A stretch of 64,000 nt of DNA from contig NZ_WIPH01000001.1 of assembly GCF_009547075.1 (NCBI RefSeq), forward strand, positions 1-64,000, written 5' to 3'. Positions 2,522 through 12,172 of the stretch are shown here, one piece after another. The first letter of the stretch is position 1, and each line of letters begins with the position of its first letter. The notes below the pieces were generated by a model. That model ran no database searches. It was not told the origin of the DNA and was given only the letters and a program-made list of their open reading frames with translations. The position numbers were made by a program, and so were the translations under genes. The DNA is from Gluconobacter aidae. Its GTDB lineage: Bacteria; Pseudomonadota; Alphaproteobacteria; Acetobacterales; Acetobacteraceae.

Positions 2522-3190
2522 TTACAACCGTCGGGAAAACCACACAACGCGGCCAAGAATCTGGCACCTGTGGGCTTCCACCTCGTAGGGTTTGAAGCGC
2601 TCGTTTTCAGACTTCACCTGAAACGTAGGGGTCTCGGCGCCATGGACGAGTTCAACCCATTTGCAGACCACGCCATCCCCGTCGAAGAGAACAAAAATCC
2701 CCTCCATCGCGACGTTCTTCTTCCGCATATCCACCAGAACCGTGTCCCCACTTCTGAGAAGCGGCTCCATGGACTGGCCTTCGATTTCCACAACGCACAG
2801 ATCGGATGCGGATGCCCTCAACTCCCGCTGTACGAAGCCGGATTCAAAGAAACGCGGCCGTCCGAAGGCATGGTCGTCAATGATTCCGCCGCCTCCAGCA
2901 CCAGCCCTGACGTCAAGTGAGCGCACGGGAACATAATCGACGGGCTCGTCTGAACCCGCATCATCAATCAGGTTCGCCGGCAGGTCGGGCAGCTTGACCT
3001 TGACGCCTTCCTTCTCGGCAATTTTTTCCGACAGATAATCAATGACTTTCTGCTCATGCTCCCGATTGGGACGCTTGCCCGTCTTCCACTGACTCACGGC
3101 CTGACTGGTGATGCCGAACCTCTTTGCGAGATCAATATTGCGGACAGCGCCAATTTTAATGGCGTGCTGGAAGAGCTCTTGGAAAGTCAT
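2522..3190 (-). CDS. XRE/S24-type (LexA/cI-like) repressor
   Basis: The product has 222 residues. Residues about 16-37 form a helix-turn-helix (DLAKRFGITSQAVSQWKTGK). The C-terminal half is an S24 peptidase-like domain with Ser140 in GQSMEPLLRSGD and Lys177 in VVCKWVE, a spacing of 37 residues that equals the Ser-Lys dyad spacing of LexA. Ala-Gly bonds occur at 96-99 (RAGAGGGG), a plausible self-cleavage site, although many phage-type members carry this run without proven cleavage. Family members repress lytic or SOS-type genes until RecA-stimulated cleavage. It follows nagB on the same strand but has its own promoter-like signals, so it is probably an orphan prophage or island regulator and not part of the nag operon. 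Confidence 0.85.
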   Translation of the reverse strand: MTFQELFQHAIKIGAVRNIDLAKRFGITSQAVSQWKTGKRPNREHEQKVIDYLSEKIAEKEGVKVKLPDLPANLIDDAGSDEPVDYVPVRSLDVRAGAGGGGIIDDHAFGRPRFFESGFVQRELRASASDLCVVEIEGQSMEPLLRSGDTVLVDMRKKNVAMEGIFVLFDGDGVVCKWVELVHGAETPTFQVKSENERFKPYEVEAHRCQILGRVVWFSRRL

Positions 3191-3194
3191 TCTT

Positions 3195-3255
3195 ACGTTA
3201 TAGCGTTAAACTTACTTACAATCACTATAAGTTTTCGGGGCTGTTTGGTAAGTGA
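3195..3255 (-). promoter_or_regulatory. Candidate promoter and operators of the S24 repressor gene
   Basis: Leftward, TTACCA (3246-3251) and TATAGT (3224-3229) are 16 nt apart. This places the promoter over the last codons of nagB. GTAAGTAAGT (3210-3219) lies just past the -10, near the expected start, and CACTTACC (3248-3255) overlaps the -35. ACGTTATAGCGT (3195-3206) is a 10-of-12 palindrome just before the start codon. The arrangement suits autoregulation. Confidence 0.4.
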
Positions 3256-3992
3256 CCATTCTGTCGCCAGATCCGGGCCGCTGCCGCATCCAGAATGACT
3301 GTTACATCGTCATGAAGCCGGATGGCCGTGGCGCTGACGGCCTCGCTGATCGGACCGTTCAGCGCCTCGTCAACGATCGCCGCCTTGTTGTCGCCAACGG
3401 CTACCAGCAGAAGATGGCGCGCTTCAAGGATCGTCCCCACCCCCATCGTCAGGGCACGTTCCGGCACACGCTCCGGGTCGTCGCCGAACATGCCGCTGTT
3501 CTGCCGCCGCGTCACGTCGTCCAGATGGACGACCCGTGTCCGGCTGTCGAACGCAGAGGGTGGTTCGTTGAAACCGATATGCCCCGTCTCGCCAATGCCC
3601 AGAAGCTGCAACCCGAGGCCACCGGCCGCGCGAATGGCTGCTTCATAACGCGCGCATTCAGCATCCAGATCCTCGGCCGAGCCGTCCGGCACATGCCCCT
3701 GACCGGCAGGCATATTCACATGCGAAAACAGATGCTCCTGCATGTAATGGCTGTAGGAGTTCGGGTCCGTGGGCGGCAGGCCGACATATTCGTCCAGATT
3801 GAACGACGTCGTGCCGGAAAAATCCAGCGTCCCCGCGTCATGCTGCTGCACCAGAATCCGATAGATGCTTTCCATCGTGCGGCCTGTCGCCAGTCCCAGA
3901 ATGGACGCCTGAGGCCCGCGGATTTCCTCCGCGATCATGTCCGCCGCGCGCTGAAACGCCTGATCGGGCGTGTCCGTGACGATAATTTTCAT
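3225..3992 (-). CDS. nagB: Glucosamine-6-phosphate deaminase
   Basis: NagB converts glucosamine 6-phosphate to fructose 6-phosphate and ammonia, the last step of amino-sugar catabolism. The 255-residue length is normal. ILGLATGRTM (residues about 31-40) is the phosphate-binding loop, FNLDEYVGL (about 64-72) carries the catalytic Asp, and GIGETGHIGFNEP (about 131-143) is the family signature, with E-T in place of the commoner residues before GHIGFNEP. The start overlaps the stop of nagA by 4 nt (ATGA), so the two are translationally coupled. It is the final gene of the receptor-nagA-nagB operon and completes the pathway fed by anmK and murQ. Confidence 0.95.
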   Translation of the reverse strand: MKIIVTDTPDQAFQRAADMIAEEIRGPQASILGLATGRTMESIYRILVQQHDAGTLDFSGTTSFNLDEYVGLPPTDPNSYSHYMQEHLFSHVNMPAGQGHVPDGSAEDLDAECARYEAAIRAAGGLGLQLLGIGETGHIGFNEPPSAFDSRTRVVHLDDVTRRQNSGMFGDDPERVPERALTMGVGTILEARHLLLVAVGDNKAAIVDEALNGPISEAVSATAIRLHDDVTVILDAAAARIWRQNGHLPNSPENL

Positions 3993-5095
3993 ACCCTGCG
4001 CTCTCCATTGACCCAGACTTCGCTGACCTGAAACCTGTCATCAAGAACCGTGAAATCCGCCAGAAGATCCGGCGCAATCGCCCCCCGGTCATGCAGCCCC
4101 AGATAGGCGGCGGCATTCGTACTGACCAGACGCGCCGCTTTCGGGAGCGACATCCCGGCGTCGATGGCGTTGCGCAGTGCTTGATCCAGCGTCAGCACGC
4201 TCCCTGCGAGCGTCCCGTCCGGCAGGCGGACCACACCGTCGCGGATCATCACGTCCTGGCCGCCAAGCTGGCTCGGACCGTCCGCCTCGCCCGTGCCTCG
4301 CATGGCATCCGTCACGAACAGCAGCCGCTGTCCCATCACGCGTTCCGCCAGCCGGAAACTGGCGGGATGAACATGATGCGTATCGAAAATTATCTCCCCA
4401 TAAGCCACGTCGCTGCACATCAGCGCCGTCACCGGGCCGGGACGCCGCCCTTCAATGGCCGACATGGCATTGAACAGATGCGTCCCCCCCACGGTTCCAC
4501 TTGCGGCACAGACCAGACAGATCGCCCGCTCGGTGCCTTCGAAATCCGTGGTGGTATGCCCCAGACTGACCCTGACACTCGCCTGCGCAAAAGCCTTCAT
4601 GGCCGTCGGCGCGTGTTCAAGCTCCGGCGCGATGGTCACGACACGCACACATCCCGTCGCAACGGCTTCCGCCACCCGCTCGGCGGTCGGCTCGATATTG
4701 AACGGCGGCTGGGCCCCCAGCTTGTGCGGGCTGACGAACGGCCCTTCCAGATGTGCGCCATGAATGCGCGGTCCAGCCTCTACGCCCCGACGCGAGACTT
4801 CCGCCACTGCCCGCAGGGCCGCCATGACGTCCGGCCAGGGCGCGGTGATCGTGGTGGGCAGGATCGTCGTGGTTCCGTGGCCCAGATGGAAGCGCGAGAG
4901 CGTCTCGATGGCCGCAACCCCGTCCATCGTATCGGCACCCGCGCCGCCATGGACATGACCGTCAATGAACCCTGGCAGGATATAGCGCTCCGCCACCCCG
5001 GACCGAGGCACGATCCCGCGGATATGGCTGTCAAAATCCACCCGCCCCGGGACTACGCGGTCACGCAGGACAATCCTGCCCTCAAGATGCATCAT
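3989..5095 (-). CDS. nagA: N-acetylglucosamine-6-phosphate deacetylase
   Basis: NagA removes acetate from GlcNAc 6-phosphate in the cytoplasm and feeds NagB. The amidohydrolase fold is clear: GFIDGHVHGG (metal-binding HxH), HLEGPFVSPHKLGAQPP with the metal-ligand Glu, SLGHTTTDFE, THLFNAMS, and FVTDAMRGTG with the catalytic Asp. The length of about 368 residues is usual. Three ATG codons stand in tandem at 5090-5098 behind AGGAG (5101-5105). The second, 5 nt from the ribosome-binding site, is used here; the third, 8 nt away, is equally possible. It follows the TonB-dependent receptor gene by about 50 bp and overlaps nagB. Confidence 0.94.
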   Translation of the reverse strand: MMHLEGRIVLRDRVVPGRVDFDSHIRGIVPRSGVAERYILPGFIDGHVHGGAGADTMDGVAAIETLSRFHLGHGTTTILPTTITAPWPDVMAALRAVAEVSRRGVEAGPRIHGAHLEGPFVSPHKLGAQPPFNIEPTAERVAEAVATGCVRVVTIAPELEHAPTAMKAFAQASVRVSLGHTTTDFEGTERAICLVCAASGTVGGTHLFNAMSAIEGRRPGPVTALMCSDVAYGEIIFDTHHVHPASFRLAERVMGQRLLFVTDAMRGTGEADGPSQLGGQDVMIRDGVVRLPDGTLAGSVLTLDQALRNAIDAGMSLPKAARLVSTNAAAYLGLHDRGAIAPDLLADFTVLDDRFQVSEVWVNGERRV

Positions 5096-5146
5096 CATCG
5101 CTCCTGATTCCAAATCCAGGCGCAGGGTATCCGGTCATGCCCATTC

Positions 5147-7531
5147 TCAGAAACCGGCCGTCACGGAGACCACGCCCGCAAACCCGCCGCCGACATAATA
5201 AAGCGGCGTCTGGGCAGCAATGTTCGTCCCATACACGCCTTTGGTGGCCTTGGCATTCCCCACAAGGCTTGAAGCGCCAGACAGATACCCGTTGTTGCCG
5301 AGATTGATGAGGTTCAGCTGGATCTGGGGGGGCTTTACGAACCGGTAGCTTTTCATGCGATAGCCAAGGGTGACATTCCCCGTGAAATAGGACGGAATTT
5401 TCTGGTCATTCATGAATGTGGCATATTGCGATCCCACATAATTCAGGTTGAAATTCCCGAAAATCGAACCGTTGTCATAAGCGAGCCCGATCGTCCCGCT
5501 GAAGGTCGGCGTATTGACGGCGGTCTTGCCTTTTGTCGGCAGCAGATCGCCCCCAGACGCCAGATTGTTGTCGATCGTGGCGTGCAGATACTGGCCCGAC
5601 AGATAAGGGCTGAAATGGTGCCAGGGACGCAGGCCAAGCTCCAGTTCCGCACCGCGTGACGTCTGGCCACCCGCATTGATGGAGGCCGTTGTCGCCACAC
5701 CGTTGAGATAGACGGTGGAGCTGAGCTGGCGGTTCGTCAGGTTATAGTTGAACAACGCAGCCGAAATGTTGACCAGACCGGTATGGCGATACCCGATCTC
5801 CTCGCCAATCGAATATTCCGGAGAAAGATTGCTGGCGCGGCTATGCGCGATCTTGCCGGTGGAAGTGCTGAAATAATCGGCCATCGTCAGAATGGAGGAG
5901 GGCGCCCTGAAGCCTGTCGAGCCATTGATATAGATCTGGTCGTGCGGCGTAATGCGATAGCTTGCGGCAAACTGCGGAAGCGGCTCCGCATAGTTGACGG
6001 TCGATTTGTAATTCGCCCCCCGGATGAGCTGGGTGGACATGCGCGAGACCATGGCTTCCTTGAAGCCGGCCTCGATGGTCAGACGGTCGTTCAGCGCCTT
6101 GAACGTGTCGTTGATGAACAGGGCGTTGGTTTGCTGGACGAAATTGATGTTGTAGCGGGACAGCGGAATACCGGCCTGCGTCATGATGGGGTAACGGCCG
6201 GTCATGGAAGCGATGTTCCCGTTTCCATCCGCTTCCGCATAATAGGAATGTTCCTGCTGGGTATAGTAGGAATACCAGTATCCGAAGGACAGCGTATTGT
6301 GCTGCGTCTTCCAGTGGATGGCACTGTTCAGACCTGAATTCCGTTCGGTGAACGTATCAATTGCCGCCCCGATGACGGATGACCCGCTCTGGGAGACCTG
6401 AAGCGGACCGGTATTCTGGTTGCCAACATAGCTGTAACCCGTCGGCAGCGTGGTGCCGCCATCTCCATAGCCCCAGAAATAATCATAATAAGGCGTGATG
6501 TCGGCCGTCAGAGAGTGGCTGAGGTTCAGATGAACCGGCGCCCCCAGGATCAGTGAATTGCGCTGGTTTTCCTGGAATTTGTAATAGGATGCGCCCCCGC
6601 TTTTGAAATTGGCCGCATAATTGGCTTTCGTCCCCAGAGCGTTCCACTGCGCCATCGAGGGCGTCTTCAGATAATATCCCGTCGGACTGTTATAGGAGAG
6701 AATGAACGAGGCGCGGTTTCCCTCTCCCCATTCCTTCAGGGCCTTGCCATCCACATGATACCGCGTGGTCCGGCCCGACCCGCGCCAGTTATCAGCCCCC
6801 TCATAGGAAAAGGATACGAAACTGCGGATGCCACTATGGCCAATATCGCCGCTGTCGATCCGGGCGAATTCCCGGTTGAGCGCATAGGAACCGTAAGCAA
6901 GATTCAGAAGTCCCCCGGCCTTGTGGGACGGATCGCGCAGAGTCTCGCTCAACTGACCACCCACGGCATTATAGAGCGGGGCTGAAATATCGGCCGATCC
7001 CTGCGAGAGCGACAGGCTCTGGATATTTTCATTGTCGGCGGTCGTTCCGGTGAAAATGAAGAAATTGAGCGGATCGGCCGCAGGAATCCCTTCATAGGTA
7101 TAGCCCAGCTCGAACTGGTTCAGACCCCGTACGGACAGGCTGACCTGCTGATCGCTGGTGCCCAGCGGGTCTCCGCTTCCCGTCACGACACCTGGAAGGC
7201 TGGCGATCATGGTGGTGGGATTGCTGGTCGGGCTCTGCTTTGCGATGTAATCGCGGGTCAGGCCACTGCGCGATTTCGGGGCCGTCTGGGGCGGCATCAT
7301 GCCCCCGCCCGGTGTCGCACCCGTCACGCCTGTCGCGCTTTGCAGGTCGGAATGGACGGTAATCCGCTCGGGGTCGGAATGAACAGCCGCCGCTGCCGGG
7401 GCCGGCTTTGCGGGTTTTCGCGGTTTCGAGGACAGGGCTTTCCGGAGCTGCGTGCTGGCCGCGCTGGCAGATGTCGCGGCAAGGGCAATCAACGAGACAG
7501 AAACAAGGAAAGACCTACTGAGGTTCTGCAT
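5147..7531 (-). CDS. TonB-dependent outer-membrane receptor
   Basis: The 794-residue product starts with a signal peptide (about residues 1-24, cut after ATSASA). A Lys/Pro/Ala-rich stretch follows, then a TonB-box-like ERITV at about 56-60. The plug spans about 85-215 (MIASLPGVVTGSG, VSLSVRGLNQFELGYTYEGIP) and the rest is a beta-barrel with alternating aromatic strands, ending in Phe (VSVTAGF) as expected for BAM-dependent insertion. These receptors use TonB/ExbB/ExbD energy to import scarce ligands. The gene heads the nagA-nagB operon and faces the symporter-murQ-anmK operon. The likely ligand is therefore an amino sugar such as anhydro-MurNAc, a muropeptide fragment or a chitooligosaccharide, not iron. 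That is inferred from position alone. Confidence 0.9.
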   Translation of the reverse strand: MQNLSRSFLVSVSLIALAATSASAASTQLRKALSSKPRKPAKPAPAAAAVHSDPERITVHSDLQSATGVTGATPGGGMMPPQTAPKSRSGLTRDYIAKQSPTSNPTTMIASLPGVVTGSGDPLGTSDQQVSLSVRGLNQFELGYTYEGIPAADPLNFFIFTGTTADNENIQSLSLSQGSADISAPLYNAVGGQLSETLRDPSHKAGGLLNLAYGSYALNREFARIDSGDIGHSGIRSFVSFSYEGADNWRGSGRTTRYHVDGKALKEWGEGNRASFILSYNSPTGYYLKTPSMAQWNALGTKANYAANFKSGGASYYKFQENQRNSLILGAPVHLNLSHSLTADITPYYDYFWGYGDGGTTLPTGYSYVGNQNTGPLQVSQSGSSVIGAAIDTFTERNSGLNSAIHWKTQHNTLSFGYWYSYYTQQEHSYYAEADGNGNIASMTGRYPIMTQAGIPLSRYNINFVQQTNALFINDTFKALNDRLTIEAGFKEAMVSRMSTQLIRGANYKSTVNYAEPLPQFAASYRITPHDQIYINGSTGFRAPSSILTMADYFSTSTGKIAHSRASNLSPEYSIGEEIGYRHTGLVNISAALFNYNLTNRQLSSTVYLNGVATTASINAGGQTSRGAELELGLRPWHHFSPYLSGQYLHATIDNNLASGGDLLPTKGKTAVNTPTFSGTIGLAYDNGSIFGNFNLNYVGSQYATFMNDQKIPSYFTGNVTLGYRMKSYRFVKPPQIQLNLINLGNNGYLSGASSLVGNAKATKGVYGTNIAAQTPLYYVGGGFAGVVSVTAGF

Positions 7532-7598
7532 TGCCGTTTCTCCCTGACCTGTTCCCGGAAAATCCCGCGCGAAGGACGGTCGAACTGTTCATGTCATG

Positions 7599-7606
7599 TA
7601 CCGGTA
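7599..7606. promoter_or_regulatory. TACCGGTA palindrome in the divergent intergenic region
   Basis: The 311-bp gap between the receptor (start 7531) and the symporter (start 7843) contains this perfect 8-bp palindrome about 70 bp from the receptor start. The GntR-family product of the gene at 10311 would be expected to bind in this gap, and this is the clearest dyad, but it is short and unproven. Nothing else in 7532-7789 was recognised. Confidence 0.2.
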
Positions 7607-7789
7607 GGCACCATTTTCAAGTCCAATCTAATACCGAAAACAAACCTCGTTCAACCTATTTCGAAAGCGAATCGTAAAAACGACCACTCTGATGCTTTCC
7701 CGAAGCTTTGCAGGATCTCTTGTGGCCCGGGTGAGCAACCCTTCCATAGCGCTCCGCCCACTTGGCAGGCCGCACCGCAAATCCCGGTA

Positions 7790-7818
7790 TTGATCTGGTA
7801 TTATATTTCTCCTATATC
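7790..7818 (+). promoter_or_regulatory. Candidate promoter of the symporter-murQ-gntR-anmK operon
   Basis: TTGATC (7790-7795) and TATATC (7813-7818) are separated by exactly 17 nt. Transcription would start near 7825, just before the AAGGGGA ribosome-binding site (7828-7834) of the symporter gene, giving a very short leader. Confidence 0.45.
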
Positions 7819-7842
7819 GAAACGAACAAGGGGACATGCTTC

Positions 7843-9366
7843 ATGCGCTTTGCCGACATCGCCGTAATCTGCGCATATTTCGTGCTGCTCCCCCTTGTGG
7901 CGATCACGGTCTCGCGGCGTGGGAAAACATCCGGCGATTTCCTGTCCGCATCGCACGATCTTCCCTGGTGGGCGATCTGCCTTTCGCTCGTGGCGACAGA
8001 AACCTCGACACTGACCTTCATCAGCATTCCGGGCATCGGTTATACGACGGGAATGGTCTTTCTCGGCCTTGCCGGGGGATATCTGATCGGCCGGCTGATC
8101 GTGGCGATCTGGTTTCTGCCGCTCTACGCCCAGGGCCAGATCAGGAGTGCGTATCAGTATCTGGGCGAGCGTTTCGGTCCGGGGCTGCAATGTGCCGCCT
8201 CTGGCGCTTTTCTCGTCACGCGGCTTCTGGCCGAAGGGGTCCGCCTCTCCGCAGGGCTCCTGCCGCTGACATGGATGCTGGAACACAATGGAATATCCAT
8301 AAACCATCTGGCTGTTCTGGGCCTCATCATGGCCTTTACGCTGGCCTATACGGTTCTGGGCGGCCTGCGGGCGGTTGTGTGGTCCGACACCATACAGCTC
8401 TGCATTTATCTCTTCGGCGCGGCCGCATGCGCCGGTCTGCTGATGCACGGTCTCCCATCCGATGGCTGGACACAGGCATGGGCCGCCGGGAAAATGGCCC
8501 CGTTCCACGCCCTGCATGTCAGCACGCTGCTGTCCGATCCTTTCACCCCCCTCGCGGCCCTGGTCGGAGGCGCCATTCTTTCAGTCGCGTCCCACGGCTC
8601 GGACCAGCTCATGGTCCAGCGTCTGCTGGCGGCCAGAACCCTCCGGGATGCCCGCTACGCGCTCGTTGGCAGTGCCTTTGTGGTGGCGTTTCTGTTCGGG
8701 CTGCTGTCCCTTGTCGGCGTGCAGCTCTGGATCACGCATCACGGCCAGTCCCTGACGGAACTCGGATTGCGCTCGCCCGACGAACTGTTCCCAAGTTACA
8801 TCGTCTCAGGGTTACCTGCCGGACTGGGCGGCCTGCTGCTCGCAGGCGTCTTGAGCGCCACGATGGGCTCCCTGTCTTCCACCCTCAATGCCATGGCTGG
8901 CGCGTCCCTGACGGATTTCGGGCCTCTGCCGGAACGTCTCCTCAAACGCTGGGGACGTTTCTGCGGATTCCGGGAAAGCCCGCTGTTCGCCCCCCGTCTC
9001 ACGACGCTGCTGTGGAGTATCGCGCTCGTTCTGGTTGCCCTCTGGTTTGCACAGGGCGAGCAGTCCGCCGTGATTCTGGGCCTGACGATCGCAGGGTGGT
9101 CTTATGGCCCGACTCTCGGGGCTTTCCTCTTTGGCATGTTGTATCCTGATGCCCGGCCACAGGATGCCCTGACGGGTTTTCTGGTCTCACTGGCGGCCAT
9201 GGCGGTCATCATGAAGTTCCTCCAGTATTCCGGCTATCACATCGCTTTTCCCTGGCTCGTTCCTCTCGGTATCGCCGGAATGCTGGTGGTGGCCCGTTTT
9301 TCCATGCTGTTGACAGGCGCGCGCCGAGAGAACCGCCAGTCGGCTTATGACGCCCGAAAGGATTGA
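7843..9366 (+). CDS. Sodium:solute symporter (SSS family), probable amino-sugar importer
   Basis: The 507-residue inner-membrane protein has about 13 hydrophobic helices and SSS hallmarks: an N-terminal helix (ADIAVICAYFVLLPLVAITV), SRRGKTSGDFLSA, then LVATETSTLTFISIPGIGYTTG and a glycine-rich TM3. Family members co-transport sugars, sialic acid, amino acids or vitamins with Na+. The start at 7843 is preferred over an ATG 27 codons upstream because AAGGGGA ends 8 nt before it and MRFADIAV directly begins the first helix. It is the first gene of an operon with murQ, a GntR regulator and anmK, so the cargo is most likely anhydro-MurNAc, MurNAc or GlcNAc. No phosphotransferase component is present, so sugars would enter unphosphorylated, which matches the need for AnmK. 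Confidence 0.88.
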   Translation: MRFADIAVICAYFVLLPLVAITVSRRGKTSGDFLSASHDLPWWAICLSLVATETSTLTFISIPGIGYTTGMVFLGLAGGYLIGRLIVAIWFLPLYAQGQIRSAYQYLGERFGPGLQCAASGAFLVTRLLAEGVRLSAGLLPLTWMLEHNGISINHLAVLGLIMAFTLAYTVLGGLRAVVWSDTIQLCIYLFGAAACAGLLMHGLPSDGWTQAWAAGKMAPFHALHVSTLLSDPFTPLAALVGGAILSVASHGSDQLMVQRLLAARTLRDARYALVGSAFVVAFLFGLLSLVGVQLWITHHGQSLTELGLRSPDELFPSYIVSGLPAGLGGLLLAGVLSATMGSLSSTLNAMAGASLTDFGPLPERLLKRWGRFCGFRESPLFAPRLTTLLWSIALVLVALWFAQGEQSAVILGLTIAGWSYGPTLGAFLFGMLYPDARPQDALTGFLVSLAAMAVIMKFLQYSGYHIAFPWLVPLGIAGMLVVARFSMLLTGARRENRQSAYDARKD

Positions 9367-9370
9367 GGCC

Positions 9371-10303
9371 ATGAGTGCCAAGAACACGTCCCTGCCGTCT
9401 TCAGTTGCGCCGGGCGGGACCGAGCAGCAGGACCCGCGCTATGGTGACATTGACCTGTGGCCGGTGACATCGGTTCTGGACTCTCTGGCGGAAGCCCAGA
9501 TGACCGCAACCGCCGTCGCCCGGGCCGCGGTGCCGCAGATGAACGATGTCGTCACAGCTGCTCTCCCGCGTCTGCGGGCCGGAGGGCGGCTGTTTTATGT
9601 GGGCGCCGGAACGTCCGGCCGCGTGGGGCTTCAGGATGGGGTGGAACTCACACCCACCTTCGGCTGGCCATCCGAACGCCTCATCCTGATGCTGGCGGGA
9701 GGCACCACGGCCCTGTTCGAAGCCGTGGAAGGCGCCGAGGACCGCGAAGAGACCGCAAGCCGGGAAATCCTGTCCCACAATCCCGGCCCGAACGACGTGG
9801 TGTTCGGTATCGCGGCCAGTGGCGCCACGCCCTATACCTGCGCCGCCATTGCGGCCGCGCGGAACGCAGGCGCCCTGACCGTCGGAATCAGTTGCAACGG
9901 TGAGGGTCGTCTGCTCAGGGAAGCGGAGCTGGGCATTGCCATTGTCACCGGCGCGGAAGTCATTGCAGGCTCTACCCGGCTCAAGGCCGGCACAGCCCAG
10001 AAAGCCGTCCTGAACATGCTGTCCACAACCCTGATGATTAAACTCGGACATGGCTATCGCGGTCAGATGGTGGATATGCGCGTCGTCAATGCCAAACTCG
10101 AAAAGCGTGCCGCCCGCATGGTGCAGGATCTGGCCGGAGGCACCCCGGAAGAAATCGAGGCCGCCCTGCGGGCCAGCCGCCAGAACGTCAAACGCGCCAT
10201 TCTCATCCGCTCCGGACTGACGATGGAAGAGGCGGAAACCGCCCTGACCCAACACGCAGGCGATCTGCGCGCCGTCATGGCCGCACAAGTGGACCGGGGC
10301 TGA
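9371..10303 (+). CDS. murQ: N-acetylmuramic acid 6-phosphate etherase
   Basis: MurQ cleaves the lactyl ether of MurNAc 6-phosphate to give GlcNAc 6-phosphate and D-lactate. The 310-residue protein has a SIS sugar-phosphate domain: YVGAGTSGRVGLQDGVELTPTFG includes the catalytic Glu, and AVEGAEDREE the second acidic patch. Later come GIAASGATPY and SCNGEG, then a C-terminal helical UBA-like segment. ATG 9371 is used because AAGGA (9358-9362) lies 8 nt before it; an in-frame ATG at 9347 overlaps the symporter gene and lacks a site. The gene starts 4 nt after the symporter stop, so they are co-transcribed. It takes the product of AnmK and supplies NagA. Confidence 0.95.
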   Translation: MSAKNTSLPSSVAPGGTEQQDPRYGDIDLWPVTSVLDSLAEAQMTATAVARAAVPQMNDVVTAALPRLRAGGRLFYVGAGTSGRVGLQDGVELTPTFGWPSERLILMLAGGTTALFEAVEGAEDREETASREILSHNPGPNDVVFGIAASGATPYTCAAIAAARNAGALTVGISCNGEGRLLREAELGIAIVTGAEVIAGSTRLKAGTAQKAVLNMLSTTLMIKLGHGYRGQMVDMRVVNAKLEKRAARMVQDLAGGTPEEIEAALRASRQNVKRAILIRSGLTMEEAETALTQHAGDLRAVMAAQVDRG

Positions 10304-10310
10304 GGTTTTT

Positions 10311-11075
10311 ATGGACGTGAAGCCCACGGAAAACATTTTTGCTGCCCTCACGCCGGATGAGACCAACCGCAAACCCCTGTATCTGCAACTGGCTGAACGC
10401 CTGCGCGAACTCATCAACGGGGGAACCCTGCGCGGCGGCGACGCCGTTCCGCCGGAGCGTGAACTGGCCGCGCTGACAGGCGTCTCCCGTGTAACGGTCC
10501 GCAAATCGCTCGAACAACTGGTGACGGCTGGTCTCCTGACCCAGCGCCCCGGCGCGGGAACATTCGTCTCCCGCAGGATCCAGCAGCCGCTTTCGGTCCT
10601 GATGGGGTTTTCCGACGACATGCGGGCCCGCGGCTACGAACCGGCATCAATCTGGCTGGACAAACGCGCCGCAGGCGCCAGCCCGGACGAAGCCATGGCG
10701 CTGGGCATCGCTCCGGCCGCCCCGGTCCTGCGCCTGAAACGGATCCGGACCGCGGACGGCGAACCGATGGCCATCGAAACAGCCGTCATCTCACGTCGGG
10801 ATCTGGCCTCTCCGGAACTGGTCGGGGAATCGTTTTACGCGGCCCTGAAAGCGCACGGCCTGTTGCCCGTCAGGGCACTTCAGCGGATCAGGGCGCGCAT
10901 GGCCACGCTCCACGAAGCCGAACTGCTCCATATCAGCCACCCCACGGCCATTCTTGAAATCGAACGGCGCTCTTTCCTTCCGGACGGGCGCGTCCTTGAG
11001 GTCACATTTTCCTGCTATCGCGCCGACCTTTATGATTTCGTCGTGGAACTGCAAACCTCCGAGGAGCACGACTGA
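10311..11075 (+). CDS. GntR/HutC-family transcriptional regulator
   Basis: The 254-residue product has an N-terminal winged helix (about 22-90: PLYLQLAERLRELINGGTL, VPPERELAALTGVSRVTVRK, LEQLVTAGLLTQRPGAGTF) and a C-terminal UTRA ligand domain (about 105-248). It thus belongs to the HutC subfamily with NagR and related amino-sugar repressors. UTRA domains often bind a sugar phosphate; GlcNAc 6-phosphate, GlcN 6-phosphate or MurNAc 6-phosphate is the likely inducer here. It starts 8 nt after murQ and shares the TGATG junction with anmK, so it is made with the operon it probably controls. Confidence 0.9.
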   Translation: MDVKPTENIFAALTPDETNRKPLYLQLAERLRELINGGTLRGGDAVPPERELAALTGVSRVTVRKSLEQLVTAGLLTQRPGAGTFVSRRIQQPLSVLMGFSDDMRARGYEPASIWLDKRAAGASPDEAMALGIAPAAPVLRLKRIRTADGEPMAIETAVISRRDLASPELVGESFYAALKAHGLLPVRALQRIRARMATLHEAELLHISHPTAILEIERRSFLPDGRVLEVTFSCYRADLYDFVVELQTSEEHD

Positions 11076-12172
11076 TGCGATGCCTGACCGCAATAGGCCT
11101 GATGAGCGGCACATCGCTGGATGGCGTGGATGCAGCCCTCGTCCGGACGGACGGTGAGAAGATCCTCTCGCATGGCCCCGGCCTCAGCCTGACATATTCG
11201 CCGGAACTGCGCGCCCGCGCCCGCGATCTGCTGTCGCGCGCCGCAACGCTGAGCCCCGAAGATCCGGGACTGCGCCGTGTGGAGCGGGATCTCACCCTGC
11301 GTCACATCGAGGCCGTCCAGATCCTGCGCCAGAAGACAGACACCGTCGATCTGATCGGCTTTCATGGACAGACCATCCTGCACGCCCCCGAACGTCGCCT
11401 GACCTGGCAGATCGGCGACGCCGCCCTGCTGTCGCGTGAAACCGGCCTTCCGGTCATTCATGATTTTCGCAGCGCTGATGTCGCCGCCGGTGGGGAAGGG
11501 GCCCCTCTGGCGCCGTGGTATCACGCCGCCCTGCTGCGGGAGCATGAAGGCCCGGTTGCGATCCTTAATATTGGCGGGGTTGCGAATGTGACGCTGGTGG
11601 AGGCGGACGGAAGCATCCATGCCTGCGATACCGGCCCGGGAAACGCCCTGCTGGATGACTGGGCCTTTCTCCATACCGGCACCGCCTGCGATGTGGACGG
11701 CGCACTGGCCCGCTCGGGATCGGTTCACGAAGACATTCTCGAGCCCCTGCTGGCAGATCCCTATTTTTCCCGACCGGCCCCCAAATCGCTGGACCGGCTG
11801 ACCTTCCAGCGTGCCATGACTGCGGTCAGTGCGCTGTCACCGCAGGACGGCGCGGCAACGCTCGTCGCCTTTACGGTCGAGGCCATCCGGCGCACACCGC
11901 TGCCACGCCCTCCGGCAGCCTGGTATGTGTGCGGAGGCGGTCGCCATAACCCGGTCCTCATGGAAGAGCTTGAGCGCGCTTTGCCGGCGCCCGTGCTGCC
12001 GGTCGAAAAGCTCGGCTGGAATGGCGATGATCTGGAGGCGGAATGTTTCGGGTTTCTGGCCGTACGGGCCCTGCGAAAACTGCCACTCTCCGCCCCGACC
12101 ATCACCGGCGCTCCCTCCTGCCTGACCGGCGGGCGTCTGACGTGCAGCGGCCTGGTCCCTCCGGCTTTCTGA
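11075..12172 (+). CDS. anmK: Anhydro-N-acetylmuramic acid kinase
   Basis: AnmK opens the 1,6-anhydro ring of anhMurNAc and phosphorylates it with ATP to MurNAc 6-phosphate. The 365-residue length is usual. The family's ASKHA-type motifs are present: GLMSGTSLDGVDAALV at the N-terminus, GFHGQTILH, VIHDFRSADVAAGG, NIGGVANVTL, CDTGPGNALLDDW and the C-terminal CGGGRHNPVLMEEL. Its start overlaps the regulator stop by 1 nt. Anhydro-MurNAc comes from lytic transglycosylases during wall turnover, or from outside if the linked receptor and symporter import it. It is the last gene before an IS remnant. Confidence 0.95.
   Translation: MRCLTAIGLMSGTSLDGVDAALVRTDGEKILSHGPGLSLTYSPELRARARDLLSRAATLSPEDPGLRRVERDLTLRHIEAVQILRQKTDTVDLIGFHGQTILHAPERRLTWQIGDAALLSRETGLPVIHDFRSADVAAGGEGAPLAPWYHAALLREHEGPVAILNIGGVANVTLVEADGSIHACDTGPGNALLDDWAFLHTGTACDVDGALARSGSVHEDILEPLLADPYFSRPAPKSLDRLTFQRAMTAVSALSPQDGAATLVAFTVEAIRRTPLPRPPAAWYVCGGGRHNPVLMEELERALPAPVLPVEKLGWNGDDLEAECFGFLAVRALRKLPLSAPTITGAPSCLTGGRLTCSGLVPPAF

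Follow-up and report, generated by a model that had tools for sequence, protein, structure and literature searches.

A Seven-Gene Locus of Gluconobacter aidae That Most Likely Imports Cell-Wall Muramic Sugar Through a Sodium Symporter and Apparently Stands in for the Usual Wall-Recycling Importer

Gene Content and Organization of the Locus

We identified a seven-gene locus at 3225-12172 in a 64 kb window (the whole stretch of DNA analysed here), which is on contig 1 of the 3.0 Mb, 127-contig genome of Gluconobacter aidae (labelled G000). Most likely, cell-wall muramic sugar enters the cell via the sodium symporter of the locus and is then used as fuel; the locus apparently takes the place of the usual importer for wall recycling, of which no match was found genome-wide. 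Its genes form two divergent operons around a 0.3 kb spacer: the left operon encodes a TonB-dependent receptor, NagA, and NagB; and the right operon encodes a symporter of the sodium/solute symporter (SSS) family, MurQ, a GntR/UTRA regulator, and AnmK. All seven open reading frames (ORFs) of this layout, which had been proposed in a preliminary description of the same DNA, are present, and each of the seven gene names is backed by Pfam or NCBIfam models. The closest named relative at the locus is Gluconobacter albidus NBRC 3250, sharing 97-100% identity across the seven proteins.

The four enzymes all score above curated cut-offs. The gene anmK (11075-12172, forward strand), the sole AnmK match in the genome, encodes a kinase for 1,6-anhydro-N-acetylmuramic acid (anhMurNAc; NF007141, 471 bits); and murQ (9347-10303, forward strand, start uncertain) encodes N-acetylmuramic acid (MurNAc)-6-phosphate etherase (NF003915, 340.8 bits; 212 bits to MurQ 4s12 in the Protein Data Bank, PDB), which scores under the cut-off of the narrower model TIGR00274 (278 vs. 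302). In the left operon, nagA (3989-5101, reverse strand; its start is uncertain, the ORF tool giving TTG 5113) encodes N-acetylglucosamine (GlcNAc)-6-phosphate deacetylase (TIGR00221, 232.1 bits; PDB 2vhl, 176 bits), and nagB (3225-3992, reverse strand), the last gene, encodes glucosamine-6-phosphate deaminase (TIGR00502, 269.6 bits; top PDB match NagB 2bkv, 214 bits). With four families above cut-off, the chain AnmK-MurQ-NagA-NagB from anhMurNAc to fructose 6-phosphate is complete on paper, as the preliminary description had proposed. A conserved loop of the NagB protein has Thr-Gly-His where the solved NagB 2bkv has Asn-Gly-His.

The symporter gene (7843-9366, forward strand) likely starts at ATG 7843; the first start given by the ORF tool, TTG 7762, is upstream of an operator-like repeat at 7786-7803 (see below). 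Its product, a candidate inner-membrane importer of anhMurNAc or MurNAc, scores 80.1 bits on PF00474 (gathering score 22.8), and 143 bits on the superfamily model TIGR00813, under the cut-off of 184. The nearest solved structure is 5nv9 (117 bits), listed as a putative sodium:solute symporter, which we take to be the Proteus sialic acid symporter; with regard to sodium coupling, the alignment of the two shows a Ser-rich helix stretch largely kept, the Asp of the WxD motif kept, and one Ser replaced by Gly. A near-invariant Arg of the symporter (34 aligned rows) lies near the Arg of 5nv9 that binds the carboxylate of sialic acid, and the alignment does not pair them; nothing was drawn from it.

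The receptor gene, first of the left operon (5147-7531, reverse strand), has the domains PF00593 and PF07715, and no PDB sequence matched its product at E 0.001. The regulator (10311-11075, forward strand; PF00392 and PF07702) is closest among solved structures to YvoA (4u0v, 119 bits) and DasR (108 bits); NCBIfam offers other UTRA regulators only, all below cut-off. The genes are tightly packed: nagB and nagA overlap by 4 bases, murQ and the regulator gene are separated by 7 bases, the regulator gene and anmK have one common base, and the symporter gene and murQ overlap by 20 bases, provided murQ starts at 9347. Directly downstream of nagB is a gene for an S24 peptidase-type regulator (2522-3190), which is kept in G. 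albidus (L029) and has no match in the remaining loci compared.

Search for AmpG and NagZ

No match to AmpG (TIGR00901, E 0.001) or to GH3, the NagZ family (PF00933), was found anywhere in genome G000, and E. coli positive controls matched in both searches. The preliminary description had noted that AmpG and NagZ are not linked to the locus, which is true but too weak a statement, as there is no match genome-wide. Among 23 same-genus genomes, TIGR00901 matched in G013, G014, and G019 only, weakly (75-81 bits vs. the cut-off of 350); and PF00933 matched in eight, all in ORFs of 754-925 aa, which appear too long and do not look like NagZ. Because no AmpG/NagZ route was found in the genome, fragments of the cell's own wall probably also enter by way of this locus. 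The earlier contrast, scavenging rather than only self-recycling, is not supported in the form given: it assumed an ordinary AmpG/NagZ route elsewhere, and none was found.

Pairing of the Symporter and AnmK in the Genus

We compared 26 same-genus genomes, scoring the symporter as present at >100 bits. Symporter and AnmK are both found in 23 of them, and neither is found in the other three (G005, G009, and G022). Thirteen of the 23 have a native arrangement only, with AnmK 60-63% identical (59% in G006), and a symporter, 51-53% identical, located elsewhere; eight, G000 among them, have the linked arrangement only; and G014 and G023 have the native pair plus an extra linked symporter-murQ-gntR set without anmK. 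Native anmK adjoins murQ in 10 of the 13 native-only genomes, the ten in which the anmK site was opened, and argC precedes murQ in all four widely opened sites. The native symporter sites opened (six, from five of the native-only genomes and G014) all have a hopene-cyclase neighbour; in five of the six, a Ppx/GppA gene and a phosphorylase gene were also recognised nearby, the domains being named in one.

Both native genes are lost in G000. At the native symporter site (L104:9626-10092, on G000:C2), four gene fragments in three frames remain within 467 bases, between the Ppx/GppA-side gene and the phosphorylase/hopene-cyclase pair; and no trace of the native symporter was found at its site in any of the seven other genomes opened (G001, G003, G005, G007, G008, G009, and G012). 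At the argC-murQ site of G000 (L081), native anmK is missing from between its neighbours, and native murQ is retained as a second murQ of the genome (G000:C51:137709-138587), adjoining argC with no AnmK beside it. Two genes far from each other have thus disappeared from a genome that has the pair in one linked locus. Together with the retention of native murQ and the three genomes that have neither gene, we read this as the best sign that the symporter and AnmK share one task. Two further observations concern these sites: in G007, about 2 kb of other DNA is found at the native symporter's place (L106:11832-13820); and a wall-recycling murQ (in relatives, anmK too) follows the arginine biosynthesis gene argC (L081 on G000:C51, and L075-L078).

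For the native copies, the trees of the two proteins run in parallel. The symporter tree places the native copies of Gluconobacter with those of G071, G074, G086, and G127; a second, supported group holds the linked copies along with G097, G012, G091, G133, G033, and Acetobacter fallax. For AnmK, native copies are in a supported group with the same four genomes (plus G034 and G075), and the linked copies lie outside it, not resolved into a single group. Because symporter and AnmK genes are unlinked in G071, G074, G086, and G127, the parallel is not a linkage effect there. The native murQ of G000 falls within native Gluconobacter, and its linked murQ falls outside. From these placements we read the linked locus as having spread horizontally; old duplication plus uneven loss may explain them instead. 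G075, G165, G079, and G034 are on long branches in at least one tree, and their placements were not relied on.

Distribution in the Family

Fifteen of 120 genomes of the family contain the symporter, and all but one of the 15 are without an AmpG match; an AmpG match of some kind is found in 91 of the 105 genomes without the symporter (Fisher p 8e-10 for the symporter vs. any AmpG match, and 1e-7 with above-cut-off AmpG only; the genomes are related and the events are not independent). MurQ scores above cut-off in all 15 symporter genomes, vs. 41 of the 105 others. These 56 MurQ genomes comprise 38 with an AmpG match only, 15 with the symporter, and three with neither, so that 53 have an importer candidate; and of the 14 family genomes without either importer, 11 have no MurQ above cut-off.

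The symporter is at most 2 kb from murQ in nine of the 15 genomes, and it adjoins a PF00144 hydrolase gene in three more (G074, G086, and G127). The preliminary description had drawn its link between transporter and enzymes from gene order. The comparison now ties the symporter to AnmK and MurQ. Separation of enzyme genes and transporters in relatives, which the preliminary description had named as an argument against its reading, is seen in part, in six of the 15 genomes, yet the genes still co-occur there. A candidate AmgK-like sugar kinase beside the symporter of G034, suggested by an APH-domain match, was rejected, as NCBIfam assigns it as S-methyl-5-thioribose kinase above cut-off.

The Control Region and the Receptor

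The spacer contains two operator-like direct repeats with an 11-base period, one at 7629-7646 (reverse strand, GGTTTG-N5-GGTATTA) towards the receptor operon, and the other at 7786-7803 (forward strand, GGTATTGATCTGGTATTA) towards the symporter operon. Both are exact matches to the 18-base motif GGTNT-N6-GGTATTA, and they are its only two exact matches in the 64 kb, one facing each operon; at up to two mismatches the motif is unremarkable in the window (4 matches vs. 1.7 expected, with 7 of 100 shuffles reaching 4). The receptor-side repeat is at the same place in L029, L030, and L031. In L029, L030, L031, L033-L037, and L085, the symporter-side repeat also precedes the symporter, with no more than one mismatch; at this threshold it was not found before the symporter in L032 (G. 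vitians), L038-L042, L071, L072, L083, L084, and L087. In G. cerinus (L037, the same as record L069) and Gluconobacter sp. Gdi (L035, the same as record L070), the receptor gene is turned round, and the motif is found both before the receptor and before the symporter. Because the motif precedes both genes, rearranged loci included, receptor and symporter look like one regulon; and the receptor's place in the locus, as first described, is borne out by the control region that it shares with the symporter operon.

The regulator is similar to the YvoA/DasR-type GlcNAc regulators in its GntR and UTRA domains. The operator sites of YvoA and DasR are inverted repeats, whereas the putative operator here is a direct repeat, and no inverted repeat of at least 12 bases was found in the spacer at the settings used; the direct repeat emerged when spacers of different loci were compared. 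Promoter and terminator scans gave nothing in the divergent spacer or after anmK. Motif matches in GH20 genes (L119-L122) are within coding sequence and were taken as coincidence.

Receptor homologues are beside or near the symporter in eight distinct loci (L029, L030, L033, L035, L036, L037, L083, and L085), sharing 48-98% identity. None was found adjoining the symporter in L031, L032, L034, and L038-L042, where the search covered the surroundings of the symporter and not the whole genome; the loci without this neighbour are from G. roseus, G. vitians, G. morbifer, Novacetimonas, and Komagataeibacter, and L031 has a different receptor gene about 1 kb beyond nagB. The receptor is also 48% identical to one near a GH20 gene in G014. 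That stretch (L124:6130-14001, on G014:C4), which contains GH20, a TonB receptor, and genes resembling, by their N-termini, NagB, a major facilitator superfamily (MFS) transporter, and a ROK-like protein, is likely a separate GlcNAc/chitin-sugar cluster. The receptor may thus take GlcNAc-containing sugars generally, and we regard it as a receptor for amino sugars, how broad a range being uncertain. A scavenging role is partly supported: the receptor appears co-regulated with the symporter but is apart from it in several relatives.

Periplasmic Hydrolases

The PF00144 hydrolase gene also adjoins the symporter or murQ gene in G. cerinus, Novacetimonas, and four Komagataeibacter loci. For the copies in G000 and G001, the best NCBIfam match is PBP4B (YfeW), below cut-off. 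The hydrolase is probably exported, its N-termini having a twin-arginine-like and lipobox-like stretch. All 17 same-genus genomes searched contain a close relative of the hydrolase (in G000 at G000:C33) and a GH20 hexosaminidase. A signal-like N-terminus was seen in GH20 in all five genomes inspected (G000, G001, G009, G012, and G014), and GH20 adjoins the hydrolase in G001, G009, and G012.

Proposed Route and Alternative Explanations

We consider it likely, with reasonable confidence, that this is a regulated muramic-sugar uptake-and-catabolism locus working without AmpG or NagZ. In the best reading of the gene associations, the symporter would take the place of AmpG/NagZ by importing anhMurNAc (or MurNAc) that arises in the periplasm. 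The locus would then probably have a part both in turnover of the cell's own wall and in scavenging, and is likely less a scavenging extra than an AmpG/NagZ replacement in the lineage, with a scavenging receptor added.

The proposed route would begin with wall turnover by lytic transglycosylases, giving GlcNAc-anhMurNAc-peptides. In the periplasm, the exported GH20 hexosaminidase would take off GlcNAc, and the exported beta-lactamase-fold hydrolase related to PBP4B would take off the peptide (both are encoded elsewhere in the genome); these periplasmic steps are the weakest part of the model. The SSS symporter would then move anhMurNAc into the cytoplasm, where, by the known chemistry of their families, AnmK would convert it to MurNAc-6-phosphate, MurQ to GlcNAc-6-phosphate, NagA to glucosamine-6-phosphate, and NagB to fructose 6-phosphate. 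The YvoA/DasR-like GntR regulator would bind the direct repeat at both operons and be freed by an amino-sugar phosphate; and the TonB receptor, where retained, would add capture of larger external fragments containing GlcNAc and MurNAc. A wider scenario, which to us could equally well prove right or wrong, is that acetic acid bacteria swapped AmpG/NagZ for full periplasmic muropeptide breakdown (GH20 and the PBP4B-like hydrolase) and anhMurNAc import by a sodium symporter that co-evolved with AnmK, and that the native, unlinked pair of Gluconobacter later gave way to a transferable locus carrying both genes.

Several points weigh against a muramic-sugar importer replacing AmpG/NagZ. The transported substrate would be assigned from genomic association. 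Loss of the native symporter and anmK beside linked copies could be plain redundancy of each; only G005, G009, and G022 escape this explanation, and they may share one loss. Against redundancy as the whole account, the redundant native murQ was kept, and in these three genomes nothing replaces the two missing genes. The native Gluconobacter symporter sits between Ppx/GppA and the phosphorylase/hopene-cyclase pair, and no tested muramic gene is beside the symporter in G034 (a 3.7 kb contig), G071, and G165. Directly upstream of the G034 symporter is the S-methyl-5-thioribose kinase gene mentioned above (TIGR01767 above cut-off; L073:688-1920), and on this neighbour, members of the symporter family may carry other sugars. 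At the family scale, G075 has both AmpG and the symporter; G029, G137, and G151 have MurQ with neither AmpG match nor symporter; and the exclusion between AmpG and symporter may go back to a single event within one clade. The role of GH20 could be no more than chitin use, and since GH20 and PBP4B-like genes are also present in G005 and G009, both without AnmK and symporter, these genes are not specific to the proposed route. Finally, the Novacetimonas locus L038 has a GntR protein 62% identical to that of G000, yet no copy of the repeat at one mismatch.

Among the alternatives, we regard as unlikely the one put forward in the preliminary description, a locus dedicated to scavenging other bacteria's muramic sugars, with self-recycling handled elsewhere. 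It would fit the control-like sequence common to receptor and symporter, an end product (via NagA and NagB) that is fuel and not a wall precursor, and the linked symporter-murQ-gntR sets that G014 and G023 carry atop a native symporter and AnmK, which look like an added nutrient system. However, no known self-recycling importer was found to handle the cell's own fragments (no AmpG or GH3 match; YejBEF was not searched genome-wide), the native symporter and anmK were lost in G000, and relatives have the symporter set without an adjoining receptor.

Quite unlikely, in our judgement, is a mainly GlcNAc or chito-oligosaccharide system, in which the symporter carries GlcNAc, and MurQ and AnmK are passengers feeding NagA and NagB. 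A symporter bringing in GlcNAc would need a GlcNAc kinase, and none is among the seven genes by family-model matches; moreover, within the genus the symporter is present wherever AnmK is and absent wherever it is absent. GlcNAc may also have its own carrier in some relatives, as a NagP-like MFS gene (281 bits, below cut-off) is beside the symporter set of G012, and one 51% identical is nearby in G079. These points outweigh, in our view, the presence of nagA and nagB in the receptor operon, the likeness of the receptor to the one in the GH20-containing stretch of G014, and the resemblance of the regulator to YvoA and DasR.

Muropeptides could instead enter by an ATP-binding cassette (ABC) importer of the Opp/Dpp or YejBEF kind, as in Agrobacterium, with the symporter in another role; we find this improbable. 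Rhizobiales and Rhodobacterales use YejBEF-YepA (PMC9790009). Two PF00496 binding proteins are present in G000, one in an ABC operon and one an orphan, which would allow ABC import of muropeptides; and the ATPase of the operon scores 229 bits on YejF, its third best model, below cut-off. For the binding protein and permease of the operon, the top models are of the nickel/oligopeptide kind, none reaching its cut-off; on YejB the linked permease has 94 bits, vs. 262 on Opp2B. In addition, there is no GH3 NagZ for imported disaccharides, whereas Agrobacterium has NagZ and AmpD (PMC9790009). Neither of the two PF00496 proteins is listed as YejA by NCBIfam, where the existence of a YejA model was left unchecked, and at least one PF00496 protein is found in each of the 17 same-genus genomes searched. 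The orphan, a DppA-like binding protein (L117:5476-7131, on G000:C13), is near a polA-like gene. Lastly, a different 1,6-anhydro sugar as substrate of the AnmK-like protein, e.g., levoglucosan, whose kinases are in the same superfamily (PDB 4zxz, 4yh5, and others), is extremely improbable and was rejected on its scores, which are 471 bits on the AnmK equivalog model (cut-off 352) and 190 bits to the solved AnmK 3qbw vs. 123 to levoglucosan kinase, with MurQ close by.

Comparison with Known Systems

Among the literature matches listed, which did not cover subscription papers, none connects AnmK, or recycling without AmpG, to Gluconobacter or the Acetobacteraceae; the papers examined name Gluconobacter only for muropeptide preparation and cross-links, or Acetobacteraceae only in a reference. 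AmpP of Pseudomonas is reportedly a further name in this field. The self-recycling importers in the literature consulted are AmpG and YejBEF-YepA (PMC9790009 and PMC13046382). Both move whole muropeptides, and a symporter for a single sugar would, if our reading is right, be a further self-recycling import route. It would explain the use of AnmK and MurQ in bacteria without AmpG and NagZ, and it names a testable gene. Wall peptides and sugars would then be freed in the periplasm and not in the cytoplasm, which bears on the sensing of wall damage and on shedding to the surroundings.

The nearest published system is the murT-murK-murQ operon of Tannerella forsythia, likewise a Gram-negative operon with an inner-membrane MurNAc carrier, a kinase, and MurQ. 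It differs in its kinase and in having AmpG: Tannerella uses MurK for free MurNAc, has no predicted AnmK ortholog, and has AmpG (PMC5790795, PMC7670621, and PMC5388701); whereas the locus described here has AnmK as the kinase and linked NagA, NagB, and TonB receptor genes, and AmpG was not found. MurT is likened to the symporter by description, not by sequence, and PMC5790795 places it in the sodium symporter superfamily in the introduction and calls it a major facilitator in the discussion.

The mur operons of E. coli (murQ-murP-yfeW, the third gene encoding PBP4B, with murR) and B. subtilis (murQ-murR-murP-amiE-nagZ-ybbC) similarly group MurQ, a hydrolase, and a regulator around a carrier of their own for muramic sugar; in B. 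subtilis, AmiE is an extracellular amidase and fragments are trimmed outside the cell before uptake (PMC5061867). Their carrier is a phosphotransferase system (PTS) giving MurNAc-6-phosphate directly, whereas an SSS symporter and AnmK are found here; their regulator is MurR and not GntR, and the hydrolase gene of G000 is at another locus.

The AmpG-NagZ-AmpD-AnmK recycling of E. coli and Caulobacter likewise relies on AnmK to process the anhMurNAc that wall turnover releases, with MurQ also taking part in E. coli (PMC13046382); AmpG and the GH3 NagZ of that pathway are the parts with no match in G000. Agrobacterium offers another AmpG-free solution in an alphaproteobacterium, in which YejBEF-YepA is an ABC importer of whole muropeptides, and NagZ and AmpD are kept (PMC9790009); here there is a symporter, and no GH3 match. 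The GlcNAc clusters of Caulobacter share the layout of receptor, NagA, NagB, and GntR, with a PTS permease (PMC13046382), in the place of which the Gluconobacter locus has the symporter, MurQ, and AnmK.

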